Source of the DNA: Acidobacteriota bacterium
GTDB lineage: Bacteria; Acidobacteriota; UBA6911
DNA: 39,076 nt
NCBI GenBank assembly: GCA_012719455.1
Contig: JAAYAJ010000029.1
Location: 1-39,076, forward strand
Direction of reading: 5' to 3'
In this document: in pieces, positions 4,249-39,035 of the stretch
Numbering within the stretch: the stretch's first letter is position 1
How the letters are laid out: each line of letters opens with the position of its first letter
The notes under the pieces: generated by a model
The model's database searches: none
Seen by the model: the letters and a program-made list of their open reading frames with translations, nothing else
Told to the model about the DNA's origin: nothing
Made by a program: the position numbers and the translations under genes

Positions 4249-4251
4249 GCG

Positions 4252-7904: not shown

Positions 7905-7938
7905 AAAGGGGGCGTCCGGCCCCATGAGGAAGGATCCT

Positions 7939-9261
7939 ATGCGTTTGTTTCTCCATCTGGTGCTGGCCGGCTTCCTCGTCGCGACCGCGGTGAGTTGCGG
8001 CGGGGGCGGAGGATCCTCCTCCTCCCCGATCGCGCCGCCCCAGGTGGACACGCGCCCGGTGATCACCTCCCTCTCGCCCGCGGAAGTCCAGGCGGGCTCC
8101 GTCACCTTCACCCTGACGGTGAAGGGAAGGAACTTCACGAAGGGCGCGCAGGTGCGCTGGAACGGCTACGAGCGCCCCACGGCCTATGTGAGCGCCACCG
8201 AACTGCGGGCCGACATCTCCTCGGCGGACGTGGCCTCGGCGGGGACGGCCAAGGTCCTGGTGTTGAACTTATCCCCCAAGACTGAATACTCGGCCGAGTC
8301 CAGCTTTGCCATCAACAACCCGGTCCCGGTCCTCCATTCACTGAACCCGCTCCGCATCACGGCCGGAAGCGCCGCCACGCCCCTGGTTCTCTACGGGGCG
8401 AATTTCGTGTCGGGCTCCATCGTCCAGATCGACGGCGCCGACCGGACCGGCACCTTCATCAACTCGACCCGGCTGTCGGTGACCCTGACCGCGGCGGATC
8501 TGGCCGCGGCGCGGGGTGTGTCGGTCCAGGTGCAGAATCCCTCCCCGGGCGGGGGGACGAGCGGCCAGATCGCTCTCGACGTCGCCGCACCCGGTCTCTA
8601 CGTGTCGACCCGGAGCCTCCCCCCGGGCGCTTCCGGCAGGACCTACGACTACGCGCTCCGGGCCGAGGGGGGGATCGCCCCCTATTCCTGGGCGCTCGAA
8701 TCCGGCGCGCTCCCCCCGGGGCTCGGTCTTTCCGCCGCCGGCGTGATCACGGGGACGGCGCCTGTTGTCACGGTCGACGCCGCTTTCCAGTTCGAGGCGA
8801 AAGTGACCGATTCCACGGGCTCGACGGTCACGGAGCCCCTCGAGGTTGCGGTCCGCACCGCGGCGCCGGGGCGCAACGACGTCTGCGGCCCGGCGACGGC
8901 CAGCCCCATATCGAACGGCGTGATCCGCGCCTCGCTGAGCCCCTACGGCGATGTCGATGTCTATAGGTTCCAGGCGGGCGCGGGAGCCAGGATCACGGCC
9001 GAAATCCGGGCCCGGCGCCTGTCGCTGTACGGGGACCCCACGAGCCCCGACATTTTTCTCGATTCCTTTCTGGAAATCCTCGACGCCGACTGCGTGCGGA
9101 TGACGTACAACGATGACCTGGAGCTGGGGGTGGTGCAGGATTCGGGGATCTCTGATTTCTACATTTCCACCGCGGGGACCTACTACCTCCGGGTCAGCGA
9201 CCTGCGCGGCGACGGCCGTCCCGACTTCATCTACGAGCTGGAACTTTCGGGCGCAGAGTAA
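7939..9261 (+). CDS. Lipoprotein with IPT/TIG, putative-Ig and PPC-like domains
   Basis: 440 residues from the ATG at 7939, which has AGGAAGGA five bases upstream; in-frame ATGs further upstream lie inside the protease gene. The signal ends in a lipobox (TAVSC, Cys20) followed by a Gly/Ser linker. The mature part reads as two IPT/TIG-like beta domains (about 37-205: VITSLSPAEVQAGS, VLHSLNPLRITAGS), one He_PIG-type putative Ig domain (about 215-300: PYSWALESGALPPGLGL, ITGTAP), and a C-terminal bacterial pre-peptidase-like (PPC) domain (about 310-440: DVYRFQAGAGARITAEI, YYLRVSD). No catalytic motif is seen, so adhesive or scaffolding use on the cell surface is inferred. It is probably cotranscribed with the matrixin. 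It converges on the CARDB gene with four bases between stop codons. Confidence 0.85.
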   Translation: MRLFLHLVLAGFLVATAVSCGGGGGSSSSPIAPPQVDTRPVITSLSPAEVQAGSVTFTLTVKGRNFTKGAQVRWNGYERPTAYVSATELRADISSADVASAGTAKVLVLNLSPKTEYSAESSFAINNPVPVLHSLNPLRITAGSAATPLVLYGANFVSGSIVQIDGADRTGTFINSTRLSVTLTAADLAAARGVSVQVQNPSPGGGTSGQIALDVAAPGLYVSTRSLPPGASGRTYDYALRAEGGIAPYSWALESGALPPGLGLSAAGVITGTAPVVTVDAAFQFEAKVTDSTGSTVTEPLEVAVRTAAPGRNDVCGPATASPISNGVIRASLSPYGDVDVYRFQAGAGARITAEIRARRLSLYGDPTSPDIFLDSFLEILDADCVRMTYNDDLELGVVQDSGISDFYISTAGTYYLRVSDLRGDGRPDFIYELELSGAE

Positions 9262-9265
9262 GTCC

Positions 9266-12200
9266 TTACCATCGCAGTTTCCCCGGCGTCTCGGAACCGC
9301 CTCGCTCCCCGCTTATAGTAAAAGGTACCAGGGTGCAGTTGTTCCCGCGATCCGATTCCGGCACCCGGACGGTTCCGTCCGGACTCAAATCGGCGCAGGC
9401 GGCCAGGTAATAGGTTCCCGCCTTGAGATCCGCCGGCAGCGACACCGCAATGGGCCCCACCTCGAGCGACTCCCCAGCGTCCAGTTCCCCGCAGGGGAGG
9501 GAGCGGAGTTCGGGGTCGTTTTCATCGACGATCCTGTCCGCCGACAGCCGGATGGAGTTCGTGAATTCCGGGGTTGCAGCGTTGCCGTTGTTGGACAAGG
9601 CGAACGAAAGGTATACGGCCTCGCCCGGCCGTCCCGCCGGGGCGGAGGTGAACAGGTTCGATGTCTTCAGATCGTGCGTTTTCGACGACTGAACGGATAC
9701 TGGGACCAGGGAGCAGGAATGCATCCCTTCCCAGTCCAGCGATGAGGGGCCGGGCCGGGTACAGATGCCGACATAGTAGGAACCCGCCGCAATTCCCGAT
9801 GGGACACGCAGCCGAGTGCTGAAATGGTAGTTCGAAGCCGCAGAAAGAGAACCGAGCTCGGCTTCATGGATGACGGCGTCTCCCCCGTCGAGAACCGGGT
9901 CCGGCGACCAGAGAAAGTAGGCGGTGACCGGAGTCTCGGATCCGCTGACGTATGCCGGGCCGTCCGGAACGGCCGAATAGGTTACGGTGAAGATCTCGCC
10001 GGGAGCGACCGGGCCTGGGCCGGATGCGGCTCCGGCAATGCTGAAGTGGTTGGGGAGAAAGCCCGGCGGGTTCACCGTCAGGGGGACGGTTTTGCAGTTG
10101 TTGCCTTCGTCCGCTTCCCGCACCGCATCGGTCGTGTCGGCGCAGGCGGTGAGGTACACCGTTCCCGTGGGGACATCCCCGGGAAGCGGGACCTGGAAAT
10201 AATCCGCATGGGATGCAAATGGTCCCAGGAAAGGAATGTGCAGATCCGCCATGACATATTGATAGGAAGCGAATTCGGGGTCAGGGGACCAGAAAAGGGT
10301 CGTGCGGGTGGGCGTTGTCAGCAAGGCGTCGCCGCCGCTGGAAGTAACGACGGCAAGGGACAGCGGCACACCCCGCGTGATTGTGGAGGGGGCATGGATA
10401 TCGGCCGTCAGCTCGTGAGTCTCCGCAGGCCCGACTAGGAAGCCGGCGAAGGCCTGATCGGAGTAGCCGCTCGACAGGGAGGTCCGGACCACAATATATG
10501 CCGGGCCGGAGGGGGCGGAGCCGGGTATTTGAATGGAGACGGGACCGAAGGCCCGGGATGCTCCGGGGGCGATCCCTGCGGTTTCGAGCGAGCCCAGGGG
10601 GAGGAAACCGTTGTCATCTTCGGAGAAGGCGTAGTCGATGCCGAACTGTATCAGGACGGGCCCGGAGTCGGCGCTGCCCGTGTTTCGCACCCTCCAGTTC
10701 AGCCCCAGGCTTTCGCCGGGGAGGGCCCGGAGGAGTTCGGGCGTGACCTCCTGCACTTCGGCCGTGGCCGTAACGGGAGAGCCGGCGCTTTGCACCGTAA
10801 AGGGGACGAGGGAGCAGTTATTGTCCTCGCGCGTTTCCACGACCCCATTCAGCGAGGGGTCGGCATAGGAATCCACACACACGGCGATATAGTGCACGCC
10901 CGGAGGAGCGTTCCGGGGGATGGTCACGGCCGATGATCGGACGTGGATGTTCTGTCCCGGATCCAGTCTGCCCCATCCGAAATGACGGATGGGCGGATCT
11001 TCCGGCGTGATCAGGGCATCCTTGGACCAGCGAATCGTGTTGAGAAAGGAATCCGTCCCGGCATTTCCGTCGTTGATTGCCGAAAACTCCACCCGGACAG
11101 TGTCCCCGGCGAAGCCCTGGGAGGGGGTCACGCTCAATCCATATGCACGCAAGTCATGCGACCTCGGGGAGAGGACCTGGATGGGTGCGACAGCGCATTC
11201 GTTCCTCTTGTCCCTGAAGTCCGACGGATCCAGGCAGACCAGAATGTAATGGGTTCCGGCGCTCAATCCCGGCGGGATCTGCAACTGGAGAGTATATTCC
11301 CGCTTCCCCCCGGGATCGATCGAGGGCACTGGGATAAAGCTCAACTGCTGGTAGTCTTTCCGAATTGGGTGGACAGACAGAAGGGCCCGCGCCGTCTTGG
11401 CATGGGGCCAGTGCTTGGAGCCCTCCCCGCCGTTTTGGATGGCAAAGGAGGCGGTGACGTATTCCCCAATCCCGGCGGCCGGCGAGTCCAGTTCAAGATC
11501 GGCGACTCGGAGAAAATCTCCGAGCGGCTCGGCCCGACACTCGAAGGTTTGGCAGTTATTGCTCTCATCGGTCTCCGCCACCAGGTCGTCGGTGTCCACG
11601 CATACGGTGATATAGCTCTTCTTCGGGGCATTTTCCGGGAGCCCCACCGTAATCGCCCCCCCACGGCTGATGTCATCACGCGGGTCGATGGCCCCGGTAT
11701 AAAAGCTCGCCAGGAGCCGGTCGCCCGGGGCGGGATCGGGATAGGGGGACCAAGTGATCCGCGTGCGGGTGGAGGTGAGCAGGGGGGCGGGCGATTGGTA
11801 GGTCGGCTTCCTGAAGAAGGATACGGTTCCGTACGCGCGTTTGGAAGGAATGTACCCCGGGGTATAGGGGTTGTCTAGAGACAGATCCCTCGGCGGTGCC
11901 TCGGCGCCTATATAAAAGGGAAGGTCGAAGGTGGCGATCTCCACGAATTTCAGGATGCCCGCATTGAAGTCCGTCTGCGCCCAGGCCTGCAGGACCAGGT
12001 CCTCCCGGTTGAGACCGTCCGGAATCCGGAGGGGGATCGGCCCGAAAAAATGGGACGAGTCTGCGGGCAGGGGATCGATGGTCTGCGCCCCGCTTTGCGC
12101 AATCGGCTCTTCGGATTTGGCGGCGCCCCGGGGCTTCAACAAGACCTTGACGGTTATGGGATGTGTGGCGGCGCCGCCGCTGTTGGTCACATTGAAGTAG

Positions 12201-13765
12201 AGGTTGACGGTTTCGCCGGGTGCCGCCCAGTCGACGTCGGTGGTTACGCCCAGGATCTCCAGGTCCGGCGGCAGCTTGGCCGGCGGGATGTCGGCCGTCA
12301 CCGTGACCGGGACCGAGACGCAGTTGTTGGATTCATCGCTTTCGCGGACGCTATCCATCAAATCCACGCATACTCCGAAATAATGGGTGCCGGGAAATGA
12401 AGGCACGACGACGCTCTCGTTGGGAGTGGTCCGTTCCTGAAGCGATCCCAAACCGTAGATCGGTATGGTCTGCATGATCCGGTCTTCCCTGCCGATGACC
12501 GGATCCCTCGACCAATGACTGGTTACGAGGACTTCCCTGTTCAAATCATGGCCGTTGTTCCTGATGCGGGCGGACCAGGTGATTTCTGCGGGGCCTGATG
12601 CGCTCAATGACAGGGAGGAAATCTCGAGATCGGGAATTCCCTCGACCCGGAAGGTTGAAATCACCCCGCAGTTGTCGGTTTCATCGAGTTCGATGAGGCT
12701 GTTTGCGGGGTCGGCGCAGACGTACAGTTCATATGTGCCGGGGGCCAACGTTTCAGAAATCGGGATCTGGATGGGGGGGCTGACCCAGGAGACATCGGCA
12801 TCCATCCCGGACAGGGAATAGATCCCCAGGTCGTGAATCTGCTCCCCTTGGCGCAACGCCATGGATACATCGAAGGAATCCACCGGGGCCGGGCTGGGAT
12901 AAAAATGAATAGCGGCGGTGATGGTTTCCCCGATATAGGCGAGATCCCCTACATTCCCAGGGCTTTGAATTTTGAGGTTGGGGACGTTTTCGGAACTCAT
13001 GACGGTGAAGGGGACGCTGGCGCAATTGTCGCTGGCATCGTCGTCGGGCACGACCCGCGAATGGATGCAGCCGACCAGAAAATAGGGGCCGGGGGCCAGG
13101 TCCGAGGGGATATGCAGGGGTATCGTGTCACCGTGACCGAAAGAATGAGCGACATAACGATCGTTGTCGTCCATAACGGTGTCTTCGGACAGGCAGATGT
13201 CGATGGAAATGGCCCGCGGCGGCACATTCCCGTTGTCGCTCCACTCGACTGAGAAATCAATGACTCCCCCGGCGGGGGCATAGGACTGGCTCGGCGAGAT
13301 GGCCGACAGCTGCAGGTCGACGTAATAGGAACTGTCAAGATCAAAGAACGCCCGTCCGTAGTTATTGGCCTCGATCGGATCCGCAAATGATGCGAAGGCG
13401 ACAAGTTCATAGGTGCCCCTGGGGGCTTCCGGGAGCGTTTCGACCGCCACCGGTCCAAGCGAAAATTCGGCGCCCGCGGCGATCGTTTCCTGCACCGACA
13501 CCGTGGTGCCGAACATGCCCTGTACAGACAGGTGGCAGTAGAAGGGGGCCGTGATGTCCCCCTCCCCGTTGTTGCGGAAGGTGACGGTAACGGAGAGGGG
13601 ATTCCCGGCATCGACCCTGGTGCTGGCGAGGGTGACCGAGATTATCTCGAGATCGTTCTCGGATTTCGGGTTGAAGACTTGGGCCGTCCCCCATCCGGCC
13701 TGGAGCAAAAGGAGCAGCAGGAACGGGAACAGTCGGCGGCGGGGCGTGGGGGTCTCGATGCTCAT
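9266..13765 (-). CDS. Giant exported protein of tandem CARDB-like beta-sandwich repeats
   Basis: 1499 residues. The ATG at 13765 begins MSIETPTPRRR plus a hydrophobic signal core and a cleavage region near GWGTAQ; GAAGGGTGG lies upstream. The open frame continues to 14341 but that part is antisense to the next gene. The mature protein is about 12 repeats of 110-125 residues, each opening with a DLxIxxL-type strand, then 'G..V...F.V.N.G', then a W/LSxDP stretch, and closing with YYLxVCxDxxxxVxExxExNNC, often with a paired cysteine. This is the CARDB (CARF-unrelated, adhesion-type) pattern. No catalytic domain or C-terminal sorting signal is evident; the C-terminus simply ends after the last repeat. 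Codon use appears somewhat less GC-rich than neighbours. Probable extracellular adhesin or scaffold; function unproven. Confidence 0.87.
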   Translation of the reverse strand: MSIETPTPRRRLFPFLLLLLLQAGWGTAQVFNPKSENDLEIISVTLASTRVDAGNPLSVTVTFRNNGEGDITAPFYCHLSVQGMFGTTVSVQETIAAGAEFSLGPVAVETLPEAPRGTYELVAFASFADPIEANNYGRAFFDLDSSYYVDLQLSAISPSQSYAPAGGVIDFSVEWSDNGNVPPRAISIDICLSEDTVMDDNDRYVAHSFGHGDTIPLHIPSDLAPGPYFLVGCIHSRVVPDDDASDNCASVPFTVMSSENVPNLKIQSPGNVGDLAYIGETITAAIHFYPSPAPVDSFDVSMALRQGEQIHDLGIYSLSGMDADVSWVSPPIQIPISETLAPGTYELYVCADPANSLIELDETDNCGVISTFRVEGIPDLEISSLSLSASGPAEITWSARIRNNGHDLNREVLVTSHWSRDPVIGREDRIMQTIPIYGLGSLQERTTPNESVVVPSFPGTHYFGVCVDLMDSVRESDESNNCVSVPVTVTADIPPAKLPPDLEILGVTTDVDWAAPGETVNLYFNVTNSGGAATHPITVKVLLKPRGAAKSEEPIAQSGAQTIDPLPADSSHFFGPIPLRIPDGLNREDLVLQAWAQTDFNAGILKFVEIATFDLPFYIGAEAPPRDLSLDNPYTPGYIPSKRAYGTVSFFRKPTYQSPAPLLTSTRTRITWSPYPDPAPGDRLLASFYTGAIDPRDDISRGGAITVGLPENAPKKSYITVCVDTDDLVAETDESNNCQTFECRAEPLGDFLRVADLELDSPAAGIGEYVTASFAIQNGGEGSKHWPHAKTARALLSVHPIRKDYQQLSFIPVPSIDPGGKREYTLQLQIPPGLSAGTHYILVCLDPSDFRDKRNECAVAPIQVLSPRSHDLRAYGLSVTPSQGFAGDTVRVEFSAINDGNAGTDSFLNTIRWSKDALITPEDPPIRHFGWGRLDPGQNIHVRSSAVTIPRNAPPGVHYIAVCVDSYADPSLNGVVETREDNNCSLVPFTVQSAGSPVTATAEVQEVTPELLRALPGESLGLNWRVRNTGSADSGPVLIQFGIDYAFSEDDNGFLPLGSLETAGIAPGASRAFGPVSIQIPGSAPSGPAYIVVRTSLSSGYSDQAFAGFLVGPAETHELTADIHAPSTITRGVPLSLAVVTSSGGDALLTTPTRTTLFWSPDPEFASYQYVMADLHIPFLGPFASHADYFQVPLPGDVPTGTVYLTACADTTDAVREADEGNNCKTVPLTVNPPGFLPNHFSIAGAASGPGPVAPGEIFTVTYSAVPDGPAYVSGSETPVTAYFLWSPDPVLDGGDAVIHEAELGSLSAASNYHFSTRLRVPSGIAAGSYYVGICTRPGPSSLDWEGMHSCSLVPVSVQSSKTHDLKTSNLFTSAPAGRPGEAVYLSFALSNNGNAATPEFTNSIRLSADRIVDENDPELRSLPCGELDAGESLEVGPIAVSLPADLKAGTYYLAACADLSPDGTVRVPESDRGNNCTLVPFTISGERGGSETPGKLRW

Positions 13766-13893
13766 GAATGCCACCCTTCGGCTTAGGTATGCTTTCCAGG
13801 CATGAACAAGGGTTCGGTTGCCCGGCATTTTATTATGGGGGGCGCCATGCGGTCCAGCGAATTGTGGGTGCGGGGAACCGTGGGCGGAGAACG

Positions 13894-13922
13894 AAAAGGG
13901 GCAGGCCCTCAAGGCCTGCCCC
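13894..13922 (-). terminator. Intrinsic terminator of the duplicated-domain lipoprotein gene
   Basis: A perfect 10-bp inverted repeat (13898-13907 with 13913-13922, GGGGCAGGCC arm) encloses a 5-base loop. On the minus strand it is followed by TTTT (13894-13897). It lies about 30 bases past the stop of the leftward gene ending at 13951, so it should end that transcript before the CARDB gene. Confidence 0.8.
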
Positions 13923-13950
13923 TGAGGTGGTGCGGAATCGGGCGGCGGGG

Positions 13951-15774
13951 TTATTCCCAGCCGCTCGGGATGCCGTGCTTGTCCATGTAGCCGATCGCCT
14001 CGATCTCGTAGATCTTCCCGTTGCGGATCTTGAAGACGTGGGCGGCGGGGAGGTCGAAGGGGCCGTAGTCGTTCCTGCGCTCGGTGATGCCGGGGACGCC
14101 GATGATGTTCATCACCTTCGGCTCGCCGTCGTGGCGGAAGATGGAGAAGGCGAAGGCCAGCCCCTTCTCCTCGTCGAGGGCGAGGATGCGGCGGTTGTTG
14201 ATGTCGCCGATGTAGCTCATGACTCCGGTCGAGAGCTGCGCGGCGCAGGTCATCCGGCGGAAGGGGGAGAAGTCGTCCTCGCCCGCCCGCGGCGGCGTGC
14301 GGTCGCCCGCGCTCGTGCCGCCGTTCTCCCTGCGCTCGCACTCGTCGGCGAAGGGGGCGACGGCGCCGTTGTCCTGAATGATCGCTTCATAGTAGGAGTC
14401 GGCGATCTCCCGCATCTTTTCACGCGGCACCCGCTCGACTTTCGGCACCCGCTCGAGCAGGGCCGGGCGCGGCTGCGACATGTTCGGGTTGAGCGGCCCG
14501 TCGCTGCGGGCCACCAGGTGGTCGATCTCAGTGATCTTGTGGTTGTCCACCTTCAGCCGGACGGCGGCGATGGTCGGTTTCCCATTCTCCCCGATCACCC
14601 CCATGAACCCGATCTCCCCGCTGTCGGGGTCGGCGGCGTAGATCTTGAAGTCGGTCGGCCCGGCGCTGGCCGTTTCCCAGAGTCCCTTGCCGACGGGGAT
14701 CTTCTTCGTGTTTTCCACCAGCTTCACGTCGCGGTCGAGCGGCACCCCGGAGGGGTCGTGCCGGGCCAGCGCGGCCAGGTAGTTGTCCATGATGTCGACG
14801 AGGCTCTGCCTGGTCAGGCTCCAGCCGTCGCTGGTCCGGTAGGGGACGCCGACGATGGCCATCGCTTCGATCTCGTGGATCCTGCCATTCCTGATCTTGT
14901 AGATGTGAGCGGCCGGGACGGTGAATTCACCCCAATCGTTGGGGCTTTCGGTCACGCCGGGCATGTTGCGGATCTTGAGGGGATTGGGTTCGCCGTCGTG
15001 GTTGAAGACGGAATAGGCCATGACCAGTCCCAACTCCTCGTCCACGGCGAACAGGCGCCGCTGGTTGATGTCGGTGATGTAGCCCATGATCCCGGTCGAG
15101 AGCTGCTCGGCGCACTTCATCCGGCCGAAGGCGGCCATGGCGCCGAAGGGGGTCGGCCCCGGCGGAAGGGGATCCTGGTTGTTGGCCGCGGTGACCCCGT
15201 TCTCCCGGCGCTGGCACTCGTCGGCGAAGGGGGCCACGTTGCCGTCGCTCTGTTCGATCGCGTCGTAGTAGGCGTTCGCCGCCCGGAGCATCTCCGCGCG
15301 CGACACGCGCTCGGAAGGATCGAGCGGCGTCAGCAGCCCGGCGCGCGGCTTGAGGAGGCCCGCCGGCAGCTCGCCCGCCAGCGGGGATACCATGTGGTCG
15401 ATTTCGGCGATCCTGCCGTCGACCAGCTTCAGGCGCGCCCCGAGCAGGGCCGGTTCCCCCTTGTCCCCGATCACCCCCATGAACCCGACCTGCCCCGCCT
15501 TCGGGTCGGCGACATAGATTTTGAAGTCGGTCGGACCGGCGCTGGCCGTTTCCCAGAGCCCTTTGCCCACTTCGATGGGATTGGTGTTTTCCACGAGCTT
15601 GACGTTGCGCGCAAAGGGCAGCCCGGTGGGGTCGTGCCTGACGACGGCTTCGAGATAGCGGTCCATCATCTTGACGAGGGCGGCGCGGTCCGGCTGCTTC
15701 GGTCCCCTCGAACAGGCGGCGGCCAAGGATCCGGCGGCGATTAGGATACAGAGACGAACCATTGTTTTTTTCAT
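13951..15774 (-). CDS. Lipoprotein made of two tandem copies of an NTF2/SnoaL-like (DUF8021-like) domain
   Basis: 607 residues with a lipoprotein signal (AAGSLAAAC, Cys21). Residues about 30-317 and 321-606 are two copies of the same domain at an offset of 292. Each holds HDPxGxP, VKLVENT, GKGLWETASAGPTDFKIY, GFMGVIGxxGxP, APFADECxRREN, QLSTGxMxYIxDIN and a final NGxIxEIEA strand. The VENT/GKGLW/RLKV-IxEIDH pattern resembles the DUF8021 group of NTF2-like proteins, best known to me from fungi; this assignment is by memory. NTF2-like folds bind small hydrophobic ligands or act as isomerases or dehydratases, but no catalytic residue can be named. The two copies are also very alike in nucleotides. 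CGGGAGCC lies upstream of the ATG; a strong terminator follows the stop. Confidence 0.85.
   Translation of the reverse strand: MKKTMVRLCILIAAGSLAAACSRGPKQPDRAALVKMMDRYLEAVVRHDPTGLPFARNVKLVENTNPIEVGKGLWETASAGPTDFKIYVADPKAGQVGFMGVIGDKGEPALLGARLKLVDGRIAEIDHMVSPLAGELPAGLLKPRAGLLTPLDPSERVSRAEMLRAANAYYDAIEQSDGNVAPFADECQRRENGVTAANNQDPLPPGPTPFGAMAAFGRMKCAEQLSTGIMGYITDINQRRLFAVDEELGLVMAYSVFNHDGEPNPLKIRNMPGVTESPNDWGEFTVPAAHIYKIRNGRIHEIEAMAIVGVPYRTSDGWSLTRQSLVDIMDNYLAALARHDPSGVPLDRDVKLVENTKKIPVGKGLWETASAGPTDFKIYAADPDSGEIGFMGVIGENGKPTIAAVRLKVDNHKITEIDHLVARSDGPLNPNMSQPRPALLERVPKVERVPREKMREIADSYYEAIIQDNGAVAPFADECERRENGGTSAGDRTPPRAGEDDFSPFRRMTCAAQLSTGVMSYIGDINNRRILALDEEKGLAFAFSIFRHDGEPKVMNIIGVPGITERRNDYGPFDLPAAHVFKIRNGKIYEIEAIGYMDKHGIPSGWE
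13954..14814 (-). repeat. Internal duplication, copy 2 of the domain
   Basis: C-terminal copy (residues about 321-607). It aligns with copy 1 without large gaps except in the linker after QxRREN/ExRREN, where copy 2 reads GGTSAGDRTPPR and copy 1 GVTAANNQDPLPP. Confidence 0.85.
14824..15687 (-). repeat. Internal duplication, copy 1 of the domain
   Basis: N-terminal copy (residues about 30-317) of the approximately 290-residue domain repeated in this lipoprotein. The stretch around 15520-15570 is nearly identical in bases to copy 2 around 14630-14690, including synonymous positions. Confidence 0.85.
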
Positions 15775-15875
15775 CTGCGGCTCCCGGTTTGGGCCCCGGA
15801 ACGTCGGGGCTGTTTGTCGTGTCCCTTCTTCAGGATGGCAGTGATACGTTAACGCAAATGGGGGGCGGGGGCAGC

Positions 15876-15911
15876 AAAAAAAAGGCCCCCGGGGCCGGTG
15901 CCCCGGAGGCC
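15876..15911 (-). terminator. Strong intrinsic terminator of the AOR-ferredoxin operon
   Basis: Arms 15884-15895 and 15900-15911 pair over 12 bp with a single mismatch (GGCC[C/T]CCGGGGC) around a 4-base loop. On the minus strand eight T follow (15876-15883). It sits 24 bases after the stop at 15935. Confidence 0.92.
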
Positions 15912-15934
15912 GTTCGGAGCGGCCGCGGTTTGGC

Positions 15935-17986
15935 CTACCCCAGCTTGCCCTTGTCCTGGAGATAGTCGGCCGCGTACTTCATGTCGAGGTCCTCCAGCGT
16001 CTTGCGGGTGGGGTAACCTGATTCGGTATTCCACCCTTCTTCCTTGTAGAAGTGGGTCTTGAAGGTGTCCACCCCTTCCCGGGTGAAGTAGAGCTCCCGG
16101 CAGTTTTCCCACTGCCACTTGGAACCGTCGAAGATGGGGAGTTCGGTGGCATAGCCGCAATAGGAGGCCCCCGGCCGGTAGTAGTACCCGGTGAAGTTTT
16201 CCATGTTGCGGTGGCGCCCCTGCAGGACGAAGATCGCCCTCTTCAGGTTCCAGGCGCGCCGGCCGATTTCCAGGCCGTCCTGGAAGGTGTGGTTGCGCCC
16301 GGTGACGGCGTTGAGGTACCGGGGCTCGAGTTCAGGCGTGTGCCCGTAGCCCTTGGGGTGGGCCTGGTTGTAGAGCTGGGAGTAGCCCCAGTCGCAGAAA
16401 CCCACCGATTCCTTGTAGTAGTTCCAGTAGTGTTGGTGCCAGGCCACCCACTTGGCGGTGTGCTCGGAGTAGATCCCGGTCTTGTAGGCCTGTTCCCCCT
16501 GCCAGCTGTAGTCGAACCAGTAGGGGTCGTTCGCCAGCGTCCGCTCGGCGAGGATGTTGACGAACTGCTCGCAGGTGATCCCGCGTTTGGTCCCCACGGA
16601 CATGTCATGGTTGTTGATGTCGCGCGAATCGAGCAGGTTGCCGTAGGCCCATTCGACCCCGGGCATGGACCAGTGGTCCTGGTACCCCCACATGGTCAGC
16701 CGGCAGAGGGTGTTGAAATCGTCCGTCCGCCCGAGCTTCTCGGCAAAGCGCGCAGTTCCTTCCGCCAGCAGATCGCCGATGCCGATCCGGTTGGCCAGCG
16801 CGATGCCGTAGATCTCCATGAACTGCTCGCTCTTGTAGGCATCCATCGGCAGGGGCGAAGTGTCGTACTTGGTGCCGGGGCCGATGATGCCCATGTCGTA
16901 CATCTTTTTCATGTACCAGCCCAGCGCCGTGTAGGCGGGAACCCTCGGCTGGATCGGGAAGTCCTTGTTGTGGTCGGTCGGGAAGGACATGGGGCCCATG
17001 AAGCAGGTTTCCATGGCGTTCAGGCTGAGCTTCTGGCAGATGTCGGTCCCCTTCTGGTTGATTATGGTCGGGGTCTGGTGGTCGACAAGCGAATACCAGG
17101 TCGATTCCGCGCAGTCGTCCGAGTCCTGGCTGTGGGCGCGGTTGCGGTTGTGGCACTGCCGCGGGAGGCCGCAGCCGGCGCAGGCGGAGGTTATCGAAGC
17201 GGGTCCGAACCCGCCGAAGCCCCCCATCCGGGGCCAGGTCTTGTCCCACCATTCCCGGGTGTTCTTGAGCTCCTTGGGGTCGGCGATCTTGATGCTGCCG
17301 GTGCCGATGACGGCCACCGCCTTCAGGTTTTTCGACCCGAAAACGCCTCCGAACCCCCCCTGGCCGGCGCCGCTGCCGCCGCCGTGGATGAGGGACGCCA
17401 CGCGGGTCAGGTTTTCTCCGGCCGGACCCATTGTCACGATCTGGGGCCGTTGCAGGGAATAGCCGCTGTCGAGGCGCCACCACTCCTCGCCGAAGCGGAC
17501 GCCGGAGCTCTTCCAGATCTCCTCCTGGGTCTTCCAGGAATCGAGCCCCCACAGCGCCTTGGCGTCTTCCAGGGTGACTTTGTCGTCGACGATGTTGATG
17601 TAGACGGGGGATTCCGCCTTGCCGACGACGGCGACGCCGTCCCAGCCGGCGAATTTCAACATCGTGGCGAAGGCGCCGCCGAAGTTGCTGTGGCAGAACC
17701 ACTGGACCGGGTAGCACTGGGGGGACAAGCCGGAGACGCTGGTGCGCGCCGCCGCCGGGGTGCCGGTGCCCGCCATCGCCCCCGTCATCAGGGCGACCAT
17801 GTTTTTCGGGTGGAAGGCGTCCTGCATGTCCCAGTCTCCGGGCGCCACGCAGAACTCCCAGAAGAGGGCCGTGGCCGTGCCGTGACCTCCGCCGTACATT
17901 TCATATTTCTGGGAATCGAGCGCCCTGATCTCTTTCGTGGACAGATTGACAAATAGAATCTTTCCGCCAAATCCTGGTGTAGCCAT
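15935..17986 (-). CDS. Aldehyde:ferredoxin oxidoreductase family (tungsten/molybdenum) enzyme, YdhV-like
   Basis: 683 residues. The N-terminus (GFGGKILFVNLSTKEI, then YGGGHGTATALFWE) and the GAGQGGFGGVFGSKNLKAVAV block (pterin-binding domain 1) are typical of the AOR family, whose members carry a bis-pterin W or Mo cofactor and one [4Fe-4S] cluster. The C-terminus (HFYKEEGWNTESGYPTRKTL) closely resembles E. coli YdhV as I recall it. Cluster ligands are probably Cys269, Cys272, Cys278 and Cys531 (SVGFCDW). Spacing of the first three is CX2CX5C where AOR and YdhV have CX2CX3C. No signal peptide is visible. GAGGAGGAG precedes the ATG. It forms an operon with the ferredoxin gene 17 bases upstream, which probably carries its electrons. 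The substrate (an aldehyde, a carboxylate or something else) cannot be told from sequence. Confidence 0.9.
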   Translation of the reverse strand: MATPGFGGKILFVNLSTKEIRALDSQKYEMYGGGHGTATALFWEFCVAPGDWDMQDAFHPKNMVALMTGAMAGTGTPAAARTSVSGLSPQCYPVQWFCHSNFGGAFATMLKFAGWDGVAVVGKAESPVYINIVDDKVTLEDAKALWGLDSWKTQEEIWKSSGVRFGEEWWRLDSGYSLQRPQIVTMGPAGENLTRVASLIHGGGSGAGQGGFGGVFGSKNLKAVAVIGTGSIKIADPKELKNTREWWDKTWPRMGGFGGFGPASITSACAGCGLPRQCHNRNRAHSQDSDDCAESTWYSLVDHQTPTIINQKGTDICQKLSLNAMETCFMGPMSFPTDHNKDFPIQPRVPAYTALGWYMKKMYDMGIIGPGTKYDTSPLPMDAYKSEQFMEIYGIALANRIGIGDLLAEGTARFAEKLGRTDDFNTLCRLTMWGYQDHWSMPGVEWAYGNLLDSRDINNHDMSVGTKRGITCEQFVNILAERTLANDPYWFDYSWQGEQAYKTGIYSEHTAKWVAWHQHYWNYYKESVGFCDWGYSQLYNQAHPKGYGHTPELEPRYLNAVTGRNHTFQDGLEIGRRAWNLKRAIFVLQGRHRNMENFTGYYYRPGASYCGYATELPIFDGSKWQWENCRELYFTREGVDTFKTHFYKEEGWNTESGYPTRKTLEDLDMKYAADYLQDKGKLG

Positions 17987-31051: not shown

Positions 31052-33763
31052 TCACTCTGCTAGCAGGCGGGCCACCTCCCGGTACAGCCGGTCGGTATCC
31101 TCGGCGTAGGCGTCGCCGCCGGCCGGGGGGCCGGGCGGGATGGGGGCGCCGAAGGTGATCCGGACCTTGTGCGGGCGGATGCGCAAACTGCCGCGGGGCC
31201 ACACGGCGTGGGTCCCGTCGATGGCGGCGGGGACCATGGGGACGCCCAGTTCGCGCGCGAGGATGGCCGCCCCCTTCTTGAAGTCCTGGAGCTTCCCGTC
31301 GTAGGAACGCCCCCCCTCGGGGAAGATGCAGAGGATCAGCCCCCGCCTGAGGCCGGCCGCTCCCGCCTTCATGGCGCGCAGGAGGTGGGCGTCGGGGTCG
31401 ACGGGAACGATGTTGGTGAGCCGGGCGGCCAGCTTCATCGGCCGGGAGGTGAACAGCATACTGTAGCCGACGAAGAACATCCTCCGGAACAGGCCGAAGG
31501 GGAGGATGGAGACCAGGACGAAGGGGTCGAGGTAGCTCTGGTGGTTGGGGCAGACGAGGTAGGGTCCCTGCGCCGGCAGGTTCCCGATGCCCCGTGTTTC
31601 CAGCCTCAGCAGCGGGAGAAACAGGAGGTAGTACAGGAGCCGGGCGAGCAGGTATTTGACCAGGGAGAGGACCGGGCCCGAGACGGGCGGCTCGTCCGAC
31701 GAAGACCCGGCTGCGAGGATCGTTTTCCAGTTCTGGCGGGAGGCCGCCCCGCCCCCCTCGCCCGCCCCCGCCTGCCGCTGGAGGCCGCGGACCAGGTCGG
31801 CCACCGTGAAGATTTCGGCGCCGAAATCCTCCGGCAGGGCGAGCTCGAGTCTCTGTTCCAGGCTGGCGAGCAGCTCCACCTTTTCCATGGAATCGAAACC
31901 GAGGTCCAGCTCCAGGTTCATCGCCGGGTGGAGGGCCGCTTCCCGGTGATGGGTCTCGGCGAGGCAGCGGGCGACCTCCCGCCCGACGGCCGATTCCATC
32001 AGGGCCCGGTCGGCCGCGCTCACCGCGACCGGCTCCGCCGCGATTTCCCCTTCCCGCAGCTGTCCGCTTTCCACCATCCGTTTCAGTTCGAGCCGCTTGA
32101 TCTTCCGGGTCGTGGTCCGCGGCAGCGGCTCGGACTGGAGCTGGTAGCTCATCAGGCGCTTGTAGCGGGGGAGCCGGTTGGAGAGCGCGGCGATCTCGTC
32201 GCGCAGGATTTCCCGCGTGTTGGCGATCTTCCTGGATTTCAGGTAGTCGAAATCGGGGACGACGACGGCGTGCAGCCGCTCCCCGCGCTCCTGCGGGGAG
32301 ACCACCCCGATGACGGCGATCTCCCGGATCGCGGGGCAACGGCCGTAGTACGTCTCCAGCTCGTCCGGGTAGACGTTCTTCCCGTTGGCGAGCACGATGA
32401 CTTCCTTCCTGCGCCCCGTGACGAACAGGTTCCCGCCCGCGTCCAGGCGCCCGAGGTCCCCGGTGCGAAACCAGCCGTCGAGGAAGGCTTCGCGCGTGGC
32501 TTCGGGGTTGCGGTAGTAATCGCGCATGACGACGGGGCCGTGGACCAGGATCTCCCCCACGCCGGCCTCGTCCGGATCAGCGATCTTGAGGTCCGTGCCC
32601 GGGAGCGCCGGCCCCACCGAGCCGATCACGTTGCTTTCGACCGGCGTGACCGTGCAGGCTCCCGTGGTTTCGGTCAGGCCGTACCCCTGGAGGATGGTAA
32701 AGCCCAAGTCGTGAAAAAACCGGGCCACCGCGGGATCGAAGGCGGAGCCGCCGCTGATGAAGAGGCGCAGCTTCGCCCCGAAACTGCGGTGAATCCGGGC
32801 GAAGAGGCGGGGGCCCAGGTTGAGGCCGAGGGCGCTTCGGCTGAAGCGGTTCAGCCGGAGCAGCGCGTGAAAAGCCCGGCGCACGGCCGCCGGTTTGTTT
32901 GCCAACTCCTCATGGATCCGGTTGTGGAAGAGATAGAAAAACTGGGGCACCGTGACCAGGATCGTGATGCCCGCTTCCTCGAGCGCCGCGAGGATTTCCG
33001 TCCGGCGGAGCGTGTCGGCGAACACCACCTGCCCCCCAAGGTAGAGGGGGATCAGGACGTTGATCACCGAGGCCAGCACGTGCTGCAACGGCAGCAGGCA
33101 GAGGAACGCCTCGTCGTCCCGGAGCGGAATGACGCCGAGCGTGCCTTCGATTTCGGAGAGGATGTTGCCGTGGGTGAGGCACACTCCTTTCGGGGTCCCG
33201 GTGGTTCCCGAGGTGTAGATGATCGTGGCGAGGTCGGAGGGGAGGCAGCGCGGCAACGGGGGAGGGTCGGGCAGCGCCGCGGCCCACTCGAGGAATTCCG
33301 CGAGTTCCCGGCGCGTCCCCTGCTTTTCCGGGAGCGGGTCGAAAGAGATCACCTGCCGCCGCGCCCCCTCTCCTTCCAGGGCCTGCTCGAGTCTTTCCCT
33401 CAACCCCCCGCTCACGAAGATCACCCGCGAATCGGAGTCGAGGATCAGCCGGAGCCACTCCTCGGGTGAGATCTGGGTGTCCAGGGGGACCGCGACCATC
33501 CCGGAGAGATAGACCCCGAGGTAGGTCGTCACCCATTCCGGGCGGTTTTCGGAGAGGATGGCCACTCGGCTCAAGGGCTCCAGGCCGAGGGCGAGCAGGC
33601 CGTGGGCGGCCGAGCGGGCCTCGGCATGGGCTTCGCGGTAGGAGACGGAGATGTAGCCCCCCGGAATTTTGAGCCGGAACGCGGTCCGGTCCGGGACGCG
33701 GAGCGCCCTCGCTTCGAAATGATCGTTGAATGTCGCCGGTTCATTGCGGGGGAGTGGTGTCAT
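31052..33763 (-). CDS. Three-domain fusion: acyl adenylating ligase - acyl carrier protein - PlsC acyltransferase
   Basis: 903 residues. Residues 1-560 are an AMP-forming long-chain acyl-CoA/acyl-ACP ligase (YTSGTTGTPKG 183-193, GYGLTETTGA 360-369, WFRTGDLGRL 431-440, conserved lysine in TTTRKIKR near 551-558). Residues about 585-665 are an acyl carrier domain with the phosphopantetheine serine in LGFDSMEKVE (Ser625). Residues about 700-903 are a 1-acylglycerol-phosphate acyltransferase-like domain with a hydrophobic lead, NHQSYLD (740-746) and FPEGGRS (814-820). This suggests a fatty acid is activated, loaded on the in-cis carrier and transferred to a lipid or other hydroxyl acceptor at the membrane. 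The acceptor is unknown. The E. coli Aas protein fuses the same activities in the opposite order. The ATG has a poor ribosome site; ccmH ends 16 bases upstream. Confidence 0.92.
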   Translation of the reverse strand: MTPLPRNEPATFNDHFEARALRVPDRTAFRLKIPGGYISVSYREAHAEARSAAHGLLALGLEPLSRVAILSENRPEWVTTYLGVYLSGMVAVPLDTQISPEEWLRLILDSDSRVIFVSGGLRERLEQALEGEGARRQVISFDPLPEKQGTRRELAEFLEWAAALPDPPPLPRCLPSDLATIIYTSGTTGTPKGVCLTHGNILSEIEGTLGVIPLRDDEAFLCLLPLQHVLASVINVLIPLYLGGQVVFADTLRRTEILAALEEAGITILVTVPQFFYLFHNRIHEELANKPAAVRRAFHALLRLNRFSRSALGLNLGPRLFARIHRSFGAKLRLFISGGSAFDPAVARFFHDLGFTILQGYGLTETTGACTVTPVESNVIGSVGPALPGTDLKIADPDEAGVGEILVHGPVVMRDYYRNPEATREAFLDGWFRTGDLGRLDAGGNLFVTGRRKEVIVLANGKNVYPDELETYYGRCPAIREIAVIGVVSPQERGERLHAVVVPDFDYLKSRKIANTREILRDEIAALSNRLPRYKRLMSYQLQSEPLPRTTTRKIKRLELKRMVESGQLREGEIAAEPVAVSAADRALMESAVGREVARCLAETHHREAALHPAMNLELDLGFDSMEKVELLASLEQRLELALPEDFGAEIFTVADLVRGLQRQAGAGEGGGAASRQNWKTILAAGSSSDEPPVSGPVLSLVKYLLARLLYYLLFLPLLRLETRGIGNLPAQGPYLVCPNHQSYLDPFVLVSILPFGLFRRMFFVGYSMLFTSRPMKLAARLTNIVPVDPDAHLLRAMKAGAAGLRRGLILCIFPEGGRSYDGKLQDFKKGAAILARELGVPMVPAAIDGTHAVWPRGSLRIRPHKVRITFGAPIPPGPPAGGDAYAEDTDRLYREVARLLAE

Positions 33764-34498: not shown

Positions 34499-35734
34499 AT
34501 GAACAAATCAGTGCGGTTGCCGTCGCAGGTCGAGAGACTCCTGGCCCGGGGGGTTGTAATCTCTTCCCCCCATACCGTTGAAATCGACGAATCGGTCGTC
34601 CCGGAGCGGATAGCTCCCGGGGTCCGGATCCACGCGGGGTGCCGGATAACGGGCGCCGACACCTCCATCGGCCCCGGTTCCGAAATCGGCCGGGAGGCCC
34701 CGGTCACGATCGAGGCCTGCCAACTCGGCCACCGGGTGGAGCTGAGGGGGGGCTATGTCTCCGGCGCCACCTTCCTCGACGGGGCGAACATGGGAAGCGG
34801 GGCCCACGTCCGTCCCGGGACCCTTCTCGAAGAGGAGGCCGGCGCCGCCCACACCGTGGGTTTCAAGCAGACCATCTTTCTCTCCTACGTCACGGCCGGG
34901 AGCCTGATCAACTTTTGCGATGCCCTGATGGCGGGCGGCACCAGCCGGAAGAACCACAGCGAGATCGGCTCCTCCTACATCCATTTCAATTTCACCCCGC
35001 GCCAGGACAAGGCCACCCCCTCGCTGGTCGGTGACGTGGCCCGCGGCGTGTTCCTGGACCAGGCCCCCATCTTCCTCGGGGGGCAGGGGGGATTGGTCGG
35101 GCCGGCGCGGGTCGCTTACGGGACCGTCATCCCCGCGGGCACGGTTTGGCGCGACGACATCCTGGAGGAGGGGTGGATCGCGGCGGCGCCCCGCGCGGCG
35201 GCGGAGGCCCGCGCTTTCGCTCCCGGGATCTACCGCGCCATCCGGCGCGTCGTGGTCAACAACCTCCTTTACATCGGGAACCTGTGGGCCCTCCGGGAGT
35301 GGTACCTCCGGGTGCGCATCGGGAGCATGGGGGGCGATCCCTACCGCGAGGCGTGCCGCGCGGGCGCCCTGGCCCGGATCGGGGAGGGGTTGGAGGAACG
35401 AGTAAAAAGACTCGGGGAACTGGCCGATAAGATGAAATATTCGCTCAGGCACGCCCGGACCGCTACCGGCGCCGAGTTGCCGGACGGGGTCCGCCAGGAG
35501 CAGCGGGCGCTCCTGGAGAGGTGGCCTGAAATGAAGGCGCGGCTCGAGACGGGGCCGCCGGAGGGTGGCGGGGTGCTGCAGCGCGACGCCTTTCTCGAAG
35601 AATGGGAGGGGATGGATCTCTCCTCCGGTCACTGTGGGGCGGTGGGCGCGCTCTCCCCGCGGGCGCGCGCCGAGGGGAGCGCATGGCTCAAGGGGATCGT
35701 GGAGGGCGCCGGAGCTCTCTGGACCGATCATTAA
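34499..35734 (+). CDS. Left-handed beta-helix protein related to the GlmU acetyltransferase domain
   Basis: 411 residues. Residues about 20-230 are hexapeptide-type repeats (APGVRIHAGCRITG, TSIGPGSEIG) leading to GSGAHVRPGTLLEEEAG, a VGFKQTIFLSYV segment and SEIGSSYIHFNFT...KATPSLVGD. These follow, in order, the R/K/Y/N landmarks of the GlmU C-terminal acetyltransferase domain, though divergently. There is no N-terminal uridylyltransferase domain. Residues 250-411 are a helical extension of unknown kind (LLYIGNLWALREWYLRVR; LGELADKMKYSLRHART). It lies 15 bases before glmM, so a part in UDP-GlcNAc formation, acetylating glucosamine 1-phosphate, is inferred; another amino-sugar substrate is possible. 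GGAGAG lies upstream of the ATG. Confidence 0.75.
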   Translation: MNKSVRLPSQVERLLARGVVISSPHTVEIDESVVPERIAPGVRIHAGCRITGADTSIGPGSEIGREAPVTIEACQLGHRVELRGGYVSGATFLDGANMGSGAHVRPGTLLEEEAGAAHTVGFKQTIFLSYVTAGSLINFCDALMAGGTSRKNHSEIGSSYIHFNFTPRQDKATPSLVGDVARGVFLDQAPIFLGGQGGLVGPARVAYGTVIPAGTVWRDDILEEGWIAAAPRAAAEARAFAPGIYRAIRRVVVNNLLYIGNLWALREWYLRVRIGSMGGDPYREACRAGALARIGEGLEERVKRLGELADKMKYSLRHARTATGAELPDGVRQEQRALLERWPEMKARLETGPPEGGGVLQRDAFLEEWEGMDLSSGHCGAVGALSPRARAEGSAWLKGIVEGAGALWTDH

Positions 35735-35749: not shown

Positions 35750-37105
35750 ATGGAACGCATGTTTGGTACAGACGGGATAAGGGGGATCGCGAACGTTCAC
35801 CCCATGACGGCGGAGATGGCGCTCGAAATCGGCCGCGCCGCAGCCTATGTCTGCAAGAAGCACCCGAAGCAGCGGCACAAGATCGTGATCGGCAAGGATA
35901 CCCGGGTCAGCGGTTACATGCTGGAATCGGCGCTGACGGCGGGCATCTGCTCCATGGGGGTGGACGTGCTGCAGGTAGGGCCGATGAGCACCCCCGGCAT
36001 TGCCTTTCTCACCCGCAGCATGCGGGCGGACGCGGGGATGATGATTTCGGCGTCGCACAACCCGTACCAGGACAACGGGATCAAGATCTTCTCTCGCAGC
36101 GGCTTCAAGCTCCCGGACGCCGAAGAGGACGAGATCGAGGACCTGATCACCTCCGGTCGGATCAAGGACATCAGGCCGACGGCGGAGGAGATCGGTCGGG
36201 CCGAGCGGATCAAGGACGCGAGCGGCCGCTATATCGTCTTCTGCAAGAACACCTTTCCCGAGGATCAGACGCTCGCCGGGATGAAGATCGTGCTCGATTG
36301 CTCCAACGGTGCCACCTACCGGCTGGCGCCCGCGGTCTTTTCGGAGCTGGGAGCCGACGTGAGCACCATCCATTGCGAGCCCAACGGGGTCAACATCAAC
36401 GACCGCTGTGGGTCGCAGCACACCGAGGATCTATCCGCCCGGGTGCGCGAGCTGGGGGCCGACGTGGGGCTCGCCTTCGACGGCGACGGCGACCGGCTCA
36501 TCGCGGTGGACGAGCGCGGGGTCAGAATGTCGGGCGACCAGATCCTGGTCATCTGCGCCCGGATGTACAAGGACCTGGGGTTGCTCAGGAACAACCTTGT
36601 CGTGGCGACGGTGATGAGCAATTTCGGCTTTTTCGCCGCCCTGAAACGGCTCGGGATCCGGGAGGCGGTCAGCAAGGTGGGGGACCGTTACGTTCTGGAG
36701 CTGCTGCAGGAAAAAGGTGGCGTCCTCGGAGGGGAGGAGTCGGGGCATATCATCTTCCTGAACCACCACACCACCGGCGACGGGATTGTCTCCGCCCTGC
36801 AACTGCTGTGGGCCATGAAAGAGAGCGGCCGACCGCTGTCGGAACTGGCGGAGGTCATGACCCCCTCCCCGCAAAAGATCGTCAACGTGGATGTCACCGA
36901 CAAGCCCCCGCTGGAGACCCTTCACGGACTGCAGGAGAAGGTCAGGGCGGCGGAGGCGGAACTGGGCGAGCGGGGGCGCGTGCTCATCCGCTATTCCGGG
37001 ACGCAGTCGATGTGCCGGGTCCTGGTGGAAGGGCCCACCGAAGAGATGACGGGACGGTTGACGATGGCCCTGGCGGACGTCGTCAGGGAGTGCATCGGCC
37101 GTTAA
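35750..37105 (+). CDS. glmM: Phosphoglucosamine mutase (alpha-D-phosphohexomutase family)
   Basis: 451 residues. It converts glucosamine 6-phosphate to glucosamine 1-phosphate for peptidoglycan and lipopolysaccharide precursors. The phosphoserine loop MMISASHNPYQDNGIKIF (active Ser102, the same number as in E. coli GlmM), the metal loop AFDGDGDRLIA, the sugar loop GGEESGHI and the C-terminal phosphate loop RVLIRYSGTQSMCRVLVEG are all present; the last differs from the commoner RPSGTEP form. MERMFGTDGIRGIAN is the typical GlmM N-terminus, favouring it over phosphomannomutase. It is the second gene of the amino-sugar operon, with 15 and 20 bases to its neighbours. Confidence 0.94.
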   Translation: MERMFGTDGIRGIANVHPMTAEMALEIGRAAAYVCKKHPKQRHKIVIGKDTRVSGYMLESALTAGICSMGVDVLQVGPMSTPGIAFLTRSMRADAGMMISASHNPYQDNGIKIFSRSGFKLPDAEEDEIEDLITSGRIKDIRPTAEEIGRAERIKDASGRYIVFCKNTFPEDQTLAGMKIVLDCSNGATYRLAPAVFSELGADVSTIHCEPNGVNINDRCGSQHTEDLSARVRELGADVGLAFDGDGDRLIAVDERGVRMSGDQILVICARMYKDLGLLRNNLVVATVMSNFGFFAALKRLGIREAVSKVGDRYVLELLQEKGGVLGGEESGHIIFLNHHTTGDGIVSALQLLWAMKESGRPLSELAEVMTPSPQKIVNVDVTDKPPLETLHGLQEKVRAAEAELGERGRVLIRYSGTQSMCRVLVEGPTEEMTGRLTMALADVVRECIGR

Positions 37106-37125: not shown

Positions 37126-38151
37126 ATGCCATTCAAGGTTATAGTCACCCGGGATTTCGATCACATGAGCGAGGTGGCCGCCGGCCTGGTCGTCGATGAC
37201 ATCCGCCGCACCCTCGCCTCCCGCCCCTCCTACGTTCTCGGCCTGGCCACCGGCAATTCGCCGACGGGGCTGTACAAACACCTCGCCAGGGAGGCGAACG
37301 CGGGGGAGATCGATCCCGCCCGGATAACCAGCTTCAACCTGGATGAATACGTCGGGCTGCCCGGGGAAAACGCCGAGCAGCGGGCGCTGCACCGGGAGAG
37401 CTACAGTTTCTTCATGGTCCAGGAACTGTTCGGGCTGCTCGCGACCAATTTTCACGAGGTCAACATCCCCTTGGGCACCCTGATCGACCAGGACAAGATG
37501 GAATTGGAGCTCAAAACCCATCCCGGGGACTGGACCCTCCGTGGGAACGACCGGGGCAAAGCCATCGTCATCCACCCCGAAGCGGGTTCGGATTATCTCC
37601 GCTGGCTCCAGGAAACGGTCCTGGACGGCTACGCAGACAAGATCGCGCGCGCGGGCGGTGTCGACCTGCACATCGTCGGGGTCGGGGGGCGGGGGCATGT
37701 GGGTTTTCACGAGGTCGGCATTCCTTTCGAGGGGAGCGAGGTTCTCCTGGTCAAGCTGGACGACAACACCGTTCACAACGCCGTCGTCGACGGCCACTTC
37801 GCGAGCCGGTCTGAATCCCCGACCTACGCTGTGACCATGGGGGCGGAACTGGTCTACCGGGCCAAGTCCGTGCTGCTTTTGGCCAACGGCAAGCGCAAGG
37901 CGGACGCCATCGCCAAGGCTCTCTTCATGGAGCCCGACTGCTCGGTCCCGATCTCCTACGGGCACACCTTCGCCCGTTCCGGGGGGAACATGATCTTCGT
38001 CGTCGACCGCCTGGCCGCCGCCGGTTTCCTGGGGCGGGAGGCGCAGCTCCGGGAGCGGGGAATCGACGTCGAGGATATCGGCGAGGAGCGGGCATCGGTC
38101 CCGGTCGAAAGCCTCAAATTCTTCTGCGCTCCCGGCTCCGCGGCCAGCTGA
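37126..38151 (+). CDS. NagB-family glucosamine-6-phosphate deaminase/isomerase homologue with altered active site
   Basis: 341 residues (E. coli NagB 266). The fold markers are clear: LGLATGNSPTGLY (phosphate loop), ITSFNLDEYVGL (Asp73, equivalent to Asp72), HxSYSFFM, and GVGGRGHVGFHE. In NagB the last motif is GxGxDGHIAFNE with Asp141, His143 and Glu148; here His191 and Glu196 remain but the Asp is Arg189. About 35-40 extra residues lie between 115 and 165 (DWTLRGNDRGKAIVIHPEAG), plus a C-terminal tail after 300. The usual lid is changed too. GAGGAGA precedes the ATG by seven bases, 20 bases after glmM. It may run in the synthetic direction supplying GlmM, or act on another sugar phosphate; a classical deaminase is less certain. 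Confidence 0.85.
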   Translation: MPFKVIVTRDFDHMSEVAAGLVVDDIRRTLASRPSYVLGLATGNSPTGLYKHLAREANAGEIDPARITSFNLDEYVGLPGENAEQRALHRESYSFFMVQELFGLLATNFHEVNIPLGTLIDQDKMELELKTHPGDWTLRGNDRGKAIVIHPEAGSDYLRWLQETVLDGYADKIARAGGVDLHIVGVGGRGHVGFHEVGIPFEGSEVLLVKLDDNTVHNAVVDGHFASRSESPTYAVTMGAELVYRAKSVLLLANGKRKADAIAKALFMEPDCSVPISYGHTFARSGGNMIFVVDRLAAAGFLGREAQLRERGIDVEDIGEERASVPVESLKFFCAPGSAAS

Positions 38152-38357: not shown

Positions 38358-39035
38358 ATGGACCCTGTAAACAGCGGGGAAAAGGGAACGACGCGCAGGG
38401 GGTTTGTCAAGGAAATCACCGCGGGCGCGGGAGGGCTGGCGCTCGGCGGCCTGCTGCTGGATGCACTCGCGCCCCGGCCCGGCCTGGCCGCGGCCGACGC
38501 CCCGTCCGCCGACGGGACGAAGTACGGGAAATACTTTCTCAGCGACAAGGGGGAGCCGCCCAAGGCCAACGATTTCGTCTCCCTCAACAGCCTTCCCCCC
38601 TTTCCCGAAATCGCCAGTCCCCAGACATACTTCCGTGGCGCCTCCGCGTTGCCGGGCGCGACCGCCACGATCGGGTGGCAGGTGTTTCAGGCTCCCGTCT
38701 GCTGGGAGACGCCCCATACCCACAAGTACGATGAATTCCTGATCTTCCTCGGCGCCGAGCTGCCCGACCTGTGCAAGAGCTTCGACGCGGAGATCGATTT
38801 CTGGATGGGGGAGGAGTTCGAGAAGCACACCATCACCTCCACCACCGTCATCTTCATCCCCAAGGGGGTGATGCACAGCCCGCTCAATTTCCGGGCGATC
38901 CGCAAGCCGGTGCTCTTCCACGCGCTCTACCTCGGGCCGAGCCTGGACGCCGTGCGGATGCCCAACTTCGACCTGACCACCTTCGACTGGGGCGGACCGG
39001 TCAACCTCAAGATGTTCGGGCCGTCGAAAAAATAA
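38358..39035 (+). CDS. Tat-exported cupin-fold protein
   Basis: 225 residues. Its N-terminus TTRRGFVKEITAGAGGLALG is a twin-arginine signal (Arg13-Arg14) with cleavage near AAADA. A cupin-type motif follows: TPHTHKYDEFLIFLG (HxH...E) and about 60 residues later IPKGVMHSPLNF (the final metal His). WMGEEFEKHTI lies between. This fits a metal-binding single-domain cupin in the periplasm, exported folded. Substrate is unknown; it could be a dioxygenase, isomerase or binding protein. AAAAAGGAG lies just before the ATG. The 206-base gap after the nagB-like gene argues for its own promoter; TAAAAT at about 38297-38302 is a possible -10 without a convincing -35. Confidence 0.82.
   Translation: MDPVNSGEKGTTRRGFVKEITAGAGGLALGGLLLDALAPRPGLAAADAPSADGTKYGKYFLSDKGEPPKANDFVSLNSLPPFPEIASPQTYFRGASALPGATATIGWQVFQAPVCWETPHTHKYDEFLIFLGAELPDLCKSFDAEIDFWMGEEFEKHTITSTTVIFIPKGVMHSPLNFRAIRKPVLFHALYLGPSLDAVRMPNFDLTTFDWGGPVNLKMFGPSKK

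Follow-up and report, generated by a model that had tools for sequence, protein, structure and literature searches.

A NagB-like gene next to enzymes of UDP-GlcNAc synthesis raises the question of what a relative of a catabolic deaminase does in a biosynthetic operon. The gene lies in the 39,076-nucleotide stretch of acidobacterial DNA analysed here (the window), whose forward strand carries three consecutive genes. The first (34499..35734) encodes a left-handed beta-helix (LbH) protein related to the C-terminal acetyltransferase half of GlmU; GlmU profiles match over that half only, at about 50 bits, and the pyrophosphorylase half is missing. The second is glmM (35750..37105), encoding phosphoglucosamine mutase. 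The third, whose start codon lies 20 bases beyond the end of glmM, is an open reading frame for the 341-residue NagB-like protein P0001 (37126..38151). Next to the operon on the reverse strand (31052-33763) is a 903-residue protein that reads like an AMP-dependent acyl ligase with a carrier domain and an acyltransferase, and just 3′ of the NagB-like gene (38361-39035, forward strand) is a 224-residue protein that has a weak twin-arginine signal and matches no Pfam family.

P0001 has a NagB fold and is a member of the NagB superfamily outside the curated deaminase equivalog: it exceeds the gathering cut-off of PF01182 (46.1 bits against 27) and falls below that of the NCBIfam nagB model TIGR00502 (132.8 bits against 236.9). 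6-Phosphogluconolactonase (Pgl, SOL/DevB) shares the superfamily fold, but P0001 scores 42.2 bits against the pgl model TIGR01198 (cut-off 124.45), and it retains the Asp72/Glu148 pattern of NagB. The AlphaFold model has a pLDDT of 89.3; within the body of the protein, its least confident loop spans residues ~190-200, beside Arg189. Foldseek places NagB deaminases at the top, with TM-scores to the target of up to 0.89. Structure alignments give 22-27% identity to NagB (EC 3.5.99.6; Bacillus subtilis 2bkv, Streptococcus mutans 2ri1, Escherichia coli 1dea). Between the copy in the window and its sister copy, dN/dS is about 0.3, near the 0.27-0.28 of a neighbouring gene, which indicates purifying selection; the value for glmM is 0.16-0.18.

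Homologues of P0001 form a distinct clade, a point that the preliminary description of this DNA had put forward as a check. In a tree of 66 proteins, 42 members fall on one side of a branch with 100/100 support and a length of 2.39 changes per site. The clade occurs in Acidobacteriota (the genus of the window's organism and Vicinamibacteria), Desulfobacterota (Thermodesulfobacteriota), Myxococcota, Verrucomicrobiota, Lentisphaerota, Auribacterota, and Lokiarchaeota. It is present in 7 of 199 genomes of the organism's own phylum and in 16 of 198 genomes of the phylum of a Desulfobacterota genome. The open-licence papers searched contain no account of it.

Active-site residues were compared across 47 main-clade members, three members from family f7, and 24 ordinary NagBs; the E. 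coli NagB reference sequence, like that of GlmS, was checked by residue numbering and alignment only. The catalytic core is intact. Asp73 (37342..37344), His191, Glu196, and Lys258 correspond to Asp72, His143, Glu148, and Lys208 of E. coli NagB, the first being its catalytic Asp, and all four are invariant in clade members with sequence at these positions; the preliminary description had rightly listed the first three as retained. Around this core, the active-site loop and the insert differ systematically from NagB. The loop GVGGRGHVGFHE (residues 185-196, 37678..37713) contains Arg189 (codon CGG, 37690..37692), at the very place given in the preliminary description, and this residue aligns with Asp141 of E. 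coli NagB. Position 189 is Arg in 43 and Lys in four main-clade members, so the basic residue is not a chance event; the f7 proteins have Val (two) or Lys (one). None of the 24 ordinary NagBs has a basic residue there (14 Asn, six Asp, three Thr, one Ser).

The same counts undo the significance first attached to Arg189, namely that a catalytic Asp had been lost and the reaction had changed. Asp141 is indeed the E. coli residue, but it is not a constant of the family, and the characterised B. subtilis (2bkv) and S. mutans (2ri1) enzymes have Asn. Since the position varies in working deaminases and, within the clade, extends to Lys and Val over an invariant core, Arg189 was rejected as a sign of lost catalysis. 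An apparent loss of the phosphate-binding Arg172 in the initial alignment was also dropped, as the refined alignment gave no support for it.

Other differences are sharper. Position 195 (37708..37710; Asn147 in E. coli) is His in all 50 clade members and Asn in all 24 ordinary NagBs, so the Phe-His-Glu triplet reported earlier in place of Phe-Asn-Glu holds for the whole clade and for none of the ordinary NagBs. All 50 members also have the DGHF motif (residues 222-225) and Arg257, which directly precedes the phosphate-binding Lys258 (37894..37899). The extra insert, first put at 35-40 residues, measures 40 (residues 119-132 and 138-163, within 37480..37614) and is modelled as a helix and a beta hairpin; a further seven residues (82-88, 37369..37389) are missing from most ordinary NagBs. 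Judged from the alignment, the hallmarks of the clade are the Asn147-to-His change, the invariant Arg before the phosphate Lys, DGHF, and the two inserts of 7 and ~40 residues. Such a pattern fits retained sugar chemistry within an altered active-site frame.

The altered frame could instead signal a different substrate, as the preliminary description suggested, with the protein acting as a ketose/aldose-phosphate isomerase or aminase on another sugar phosphate whose related amino sugar would enter GlmM. The long stem to ordinary NagBs speaks for this reading, as do the features at or close to the active site: basic residue 189, His195, Arg257, and the inserts. Its weakness is the neighbourhood, which consists of standard UDP-GlcNAc enzymes: GlmM is itself an equivalog match (TIGR01455, 600.7 bits, cut-off 447.55), and its usual substrate is glucosamine-6-phosphate (GlcN6P). 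We consider another substrate improbable; unchanged chemistry put to biosynthetic use, possibly in reverse, agrees better with the data than a new substrate does.

The genomic context of the clade differs from that of a catabolic deaminase, with glmM as partner instead of nagA or nagE. GlmM is adjacent to the NagB-like gene or within two genes of it at 33 of the 34 loci with usable flanks, mostly immediately 5′ and on the same strand; loci L004 and L033 end at contig edges. Whether glmM always accompanies these genes was a check proposed in the preliminary description; it does so nearly everywhere, the exception being locus L013. Repeated neighbours are a GlmU-like LbH protein, YvcK/GlmR, and GlmS or a 1240-residue GlmS-like protein, and in Lokiarchaeota the LbH, GlmS, NagB-like, and GlmM genes stand together.

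The large GlmS-like protein, of 1227-1264 residues, occurs in metagenome-assembled genomes of Desulfobacterota and Myxococcota (L020:9105-12821, L018, L019, L028, L032, L033). Its N terminus is extended ahead of a CGLTGI motif. The protein scores below the GlmS cut-off, and its glutaminase and isomerase residues are kept (equivalents of Cys1, Lys485, Glu488, His504, and Lys603); it is possibly a GlmS with a pro-peptide or a fused GlmS. At another locus (L024:9261-10016), only its first 252 residues follow the NagB-like gene, and the remainder lies in a 1039-residue reading frame elsewhere on the same chromosome, a possible rearrangement.

Adjacency to GlmS, GlmM, and YvcK/GlmR, the last being a regulator known to bind UDP-GlcNAc, invites the idea that the protein binds GlcN6P through its NagB fold without catalysis and so senses or regulates the GlmM/GlmS step, and LsrR-type regulators with NagB-like folds are among the weaker Foldseek matches. 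We regard this as very improbable, given that the core catalytic residues are all invariant in about 50 divergent members and that the gene has been retained where GlmS was lost.

One such loss occurred in the genome that contains the window. This genome is 97.4% complete. None of its proteins reaches the cut-off for GlmS; the matches are limited to partial glutaminase domains and small SIS matches, and neither another GlmS nor a GlmD-like or NagB-II-like protein came to light. When the 17-kb glmS region of a congener is compared with the syntenic region, which lies on a single contig (C100), both flanks match (congener positions 1-7743 and 9479-17000) and glmS (7615-9462) is missing between them, leaving a scar at about 7.3-7.8 kb (L083). 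A decayed remnant of ~45 codons from the GlmS C-terminus persists on C100, with DVDQPRNLAKSVTVE changed to DEDQPRKRARSVTRE, the tail AKSVTVE changed to ARSVTRE, and the stop codon lost. A decayed remnant inside intact flanks indicates an aged, real deletion of glmS and not an assembly gap. Within the genus, three genomes have both genes (G113, G172, G188), two have GlmS only (G037, G104), and one has the NagB-like gene only (G000).

No NagB-like protein other than P0001 was found in this genome, and NagA was found neither there nor in the genus, so a role in GlcNAc catabolism is unlikely. The presence of MurA (560 bits) implies a need for UDP-GlcNAc. With dN/dS values of about 0.16-0.23, GlmM and the GlmU-like gene remain constrained, which argues for flux through glucosamine-1-phosphate (GlcN-1-P). 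For the uridylyl-transfer step, the genome yielded neither a canonical GlmU nor UDPGP. Once GlmS is lost and a single NagB-like protein remains, the simplest link from fructose-6-phosphate (Fru6P) to GlcN6P would be that protein working with ammonia.

The main competing explanation retains the textbook activity: a true GlcN6P deaminase would act as an overflow valve in the UDP-GlcNAc operon, returning surplus GlcN6P to Fru6P, and the window's organism would live on scavenged amino sugars, much as Akkermansia does. Intact core deaminase residues, coexistence with GlmS in many genomes, and the existence of GlcNAc-dependent bacteria that lack GlmS (PMC5902328) all speak for it. Set against these, the missing NagA removes the usual route of GlcNAc-6-P deacetylation, a deaminase kept alone after GlmS loss would drain a scarce precursor, and the constraint on GlmM and the GlmU-like gene implies continued GlcN-1-P flux. 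A deaminase valve is therefore possible but, in our estimate, doubtful.

Beyond this genome, the association with GlmS loss is uneven. In the organism's phylum (199 genomes), GlmS is missing from 4 of the 7 clade-bearing genomes and from 6 of the 192 others (Fisher p=1e-4, kinship ignored), and five of those six GlmS-less genomes without the clade are <90% complete. All three genomes of family f7 lack GlmS, and one of them is a single contig. A Desulfobacteraceae genome has lost the large GlmS-like gene, of which a 46-residue remnant lies just after the NagB-like gene (L027 8973-9110), and no GlmS was found elsewhere in that genome. Across Desulfobacterota, canonical GlmS is lacking in 10 of 16 clade-bearing genomes and 33 of 182 others (p=2.6e-4), whereas genomes devoid of every GlmS-like protein show no enrichment (2 of 16 against 14 of 182). 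In genome G240 the contig stops just after the NagB-like gene. In G219 and G226 the GlmS matches are cut off by contig ends, and these two were not counted as losses. The independent losses number two or three, and nearly all genomes concerned are metagenome assemblies. In clade-bearing Candidatus Euphemobacter frigidus (L101; G209 contig C5), glmS is split into two overlapping frames by a frameshift in the first SIS domain, reflecting either a pseudogene or an assembly error.

Most clade-bearing genomes keep GlmS or the large GlmS-like protein, sometimes adjoining the NagB-like gene, and the idea that the clade is a general GlmS replacement was rejected on account of the many members that coexist with one or the other.

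The proposal that remains is a NagB-fold enzyme run biosynthetically (Fru6P + NH3 -> GlcN6P) and able to stand in for GlmS, to which we assign roughly even chances. The direction of the reaction, the use of ammonia as donor, and the functions given to the altered residues are what we infer from the pattern described above. P0001 would be the first enzyme of the LbH(GlmU-like)-glmM-nagB-like UDP-GlcNAc operon, aminating and isomerising Fru6P to GlcN6P, which GlmM would turn into GlcN-1-P. The Asp73/His191/Glu196 core would carry out the usual sugar ring-opening and proton transfer. Arg/Lys189, His195, Arg257, DGHF, and the inserts would tune phosphate and ammonia binding or the direction of the reaction, and these changes may be what makes the biosynthetic direction workable. 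The predicted product and pathway position are those of GlmS (glutamine-fructose-6-phosphate amidotransferase), which adjoins the gene at some loci; the folds are unrelated, GlmS being built of SIS domains and a glutaminase. Because P0001 has no glutaminase domain, its ammonia would come from outside. In the window's organism the enzyme probably took over from the deleted GlmS; relatives that have retained GlmS would use the two side by side.

A precedent exists in eukaryotes. Giardia lacks GlmS and uses NagB anabolically; in Giardia and Entamoeba, NagB makes GlcN6P in place of the missing GlmS/GFAT (PMC4281351), but there the gene is eukaryotic and not in a glmM operon. The principle is thus already known, and the prokaryotic prediction of an anabolic NagB relative is new within the literature searched. 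Together with this precedent, the anabolic reading draws on GlmM adjacency at 33 of 34 loci, the glmS deletion with its remnant, absence of NagA beside presence of MurA, enrichment of GlmS absence in the organism's phylum, the f7 genomes, the Desulfobacteraceae remnant, and the retained fold and core.

Several observations count against it. GlmS or its large relative persists in most clade-bearing genomes, and those of Desulfobacterota show no enrichment for a complete lack of GlmS-like proteins. Ordinary NagBs fail to support synthesis in vivo: Akkermansia NagB has a Km of 5.5 mM for Fru6P and 41 mM for NH4, and the organism requires GlcNAc (PMC5902328); a glmS mutant of S. mutans, in which nagB is retained, likewise requires it (PMC3306399). 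The lack of a detected canonical GlmU or UDPGP in the window's genome, and the small number of loss cases from metagenome assemblies, weigh on the same side. The broader claim is accordingly a tentative one, which we place a little short of even: that the clade is a hitherto unrecognised family of NagB-fold GlcN6P synthases that depend on ammonia, are spread widely among prokaryotes, and are encoded in the UDP-GlcNAc operons of both bacteria and Asgard archaea, working beside GlmS and permitting its deletion in some lineages.

Bacteria that make peptidoglycan are considered unable to do without GlmS unless they receive amino sugars (PMC5902328). The bacterium of the window, with MurA kept, glmS deleted, and a divergent NagB beside glmM, is a natural experiment on this point. 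If the anabolic reading is correct, a large uncultured group makes its cell-wall amino sugar from free ammonia, proteins that are likely annotated by homology as catabolic deaminases would be reassigned to biosynthesis, and organisms with the clade enzyme would be expected to be spared by GlmS inhibitors.
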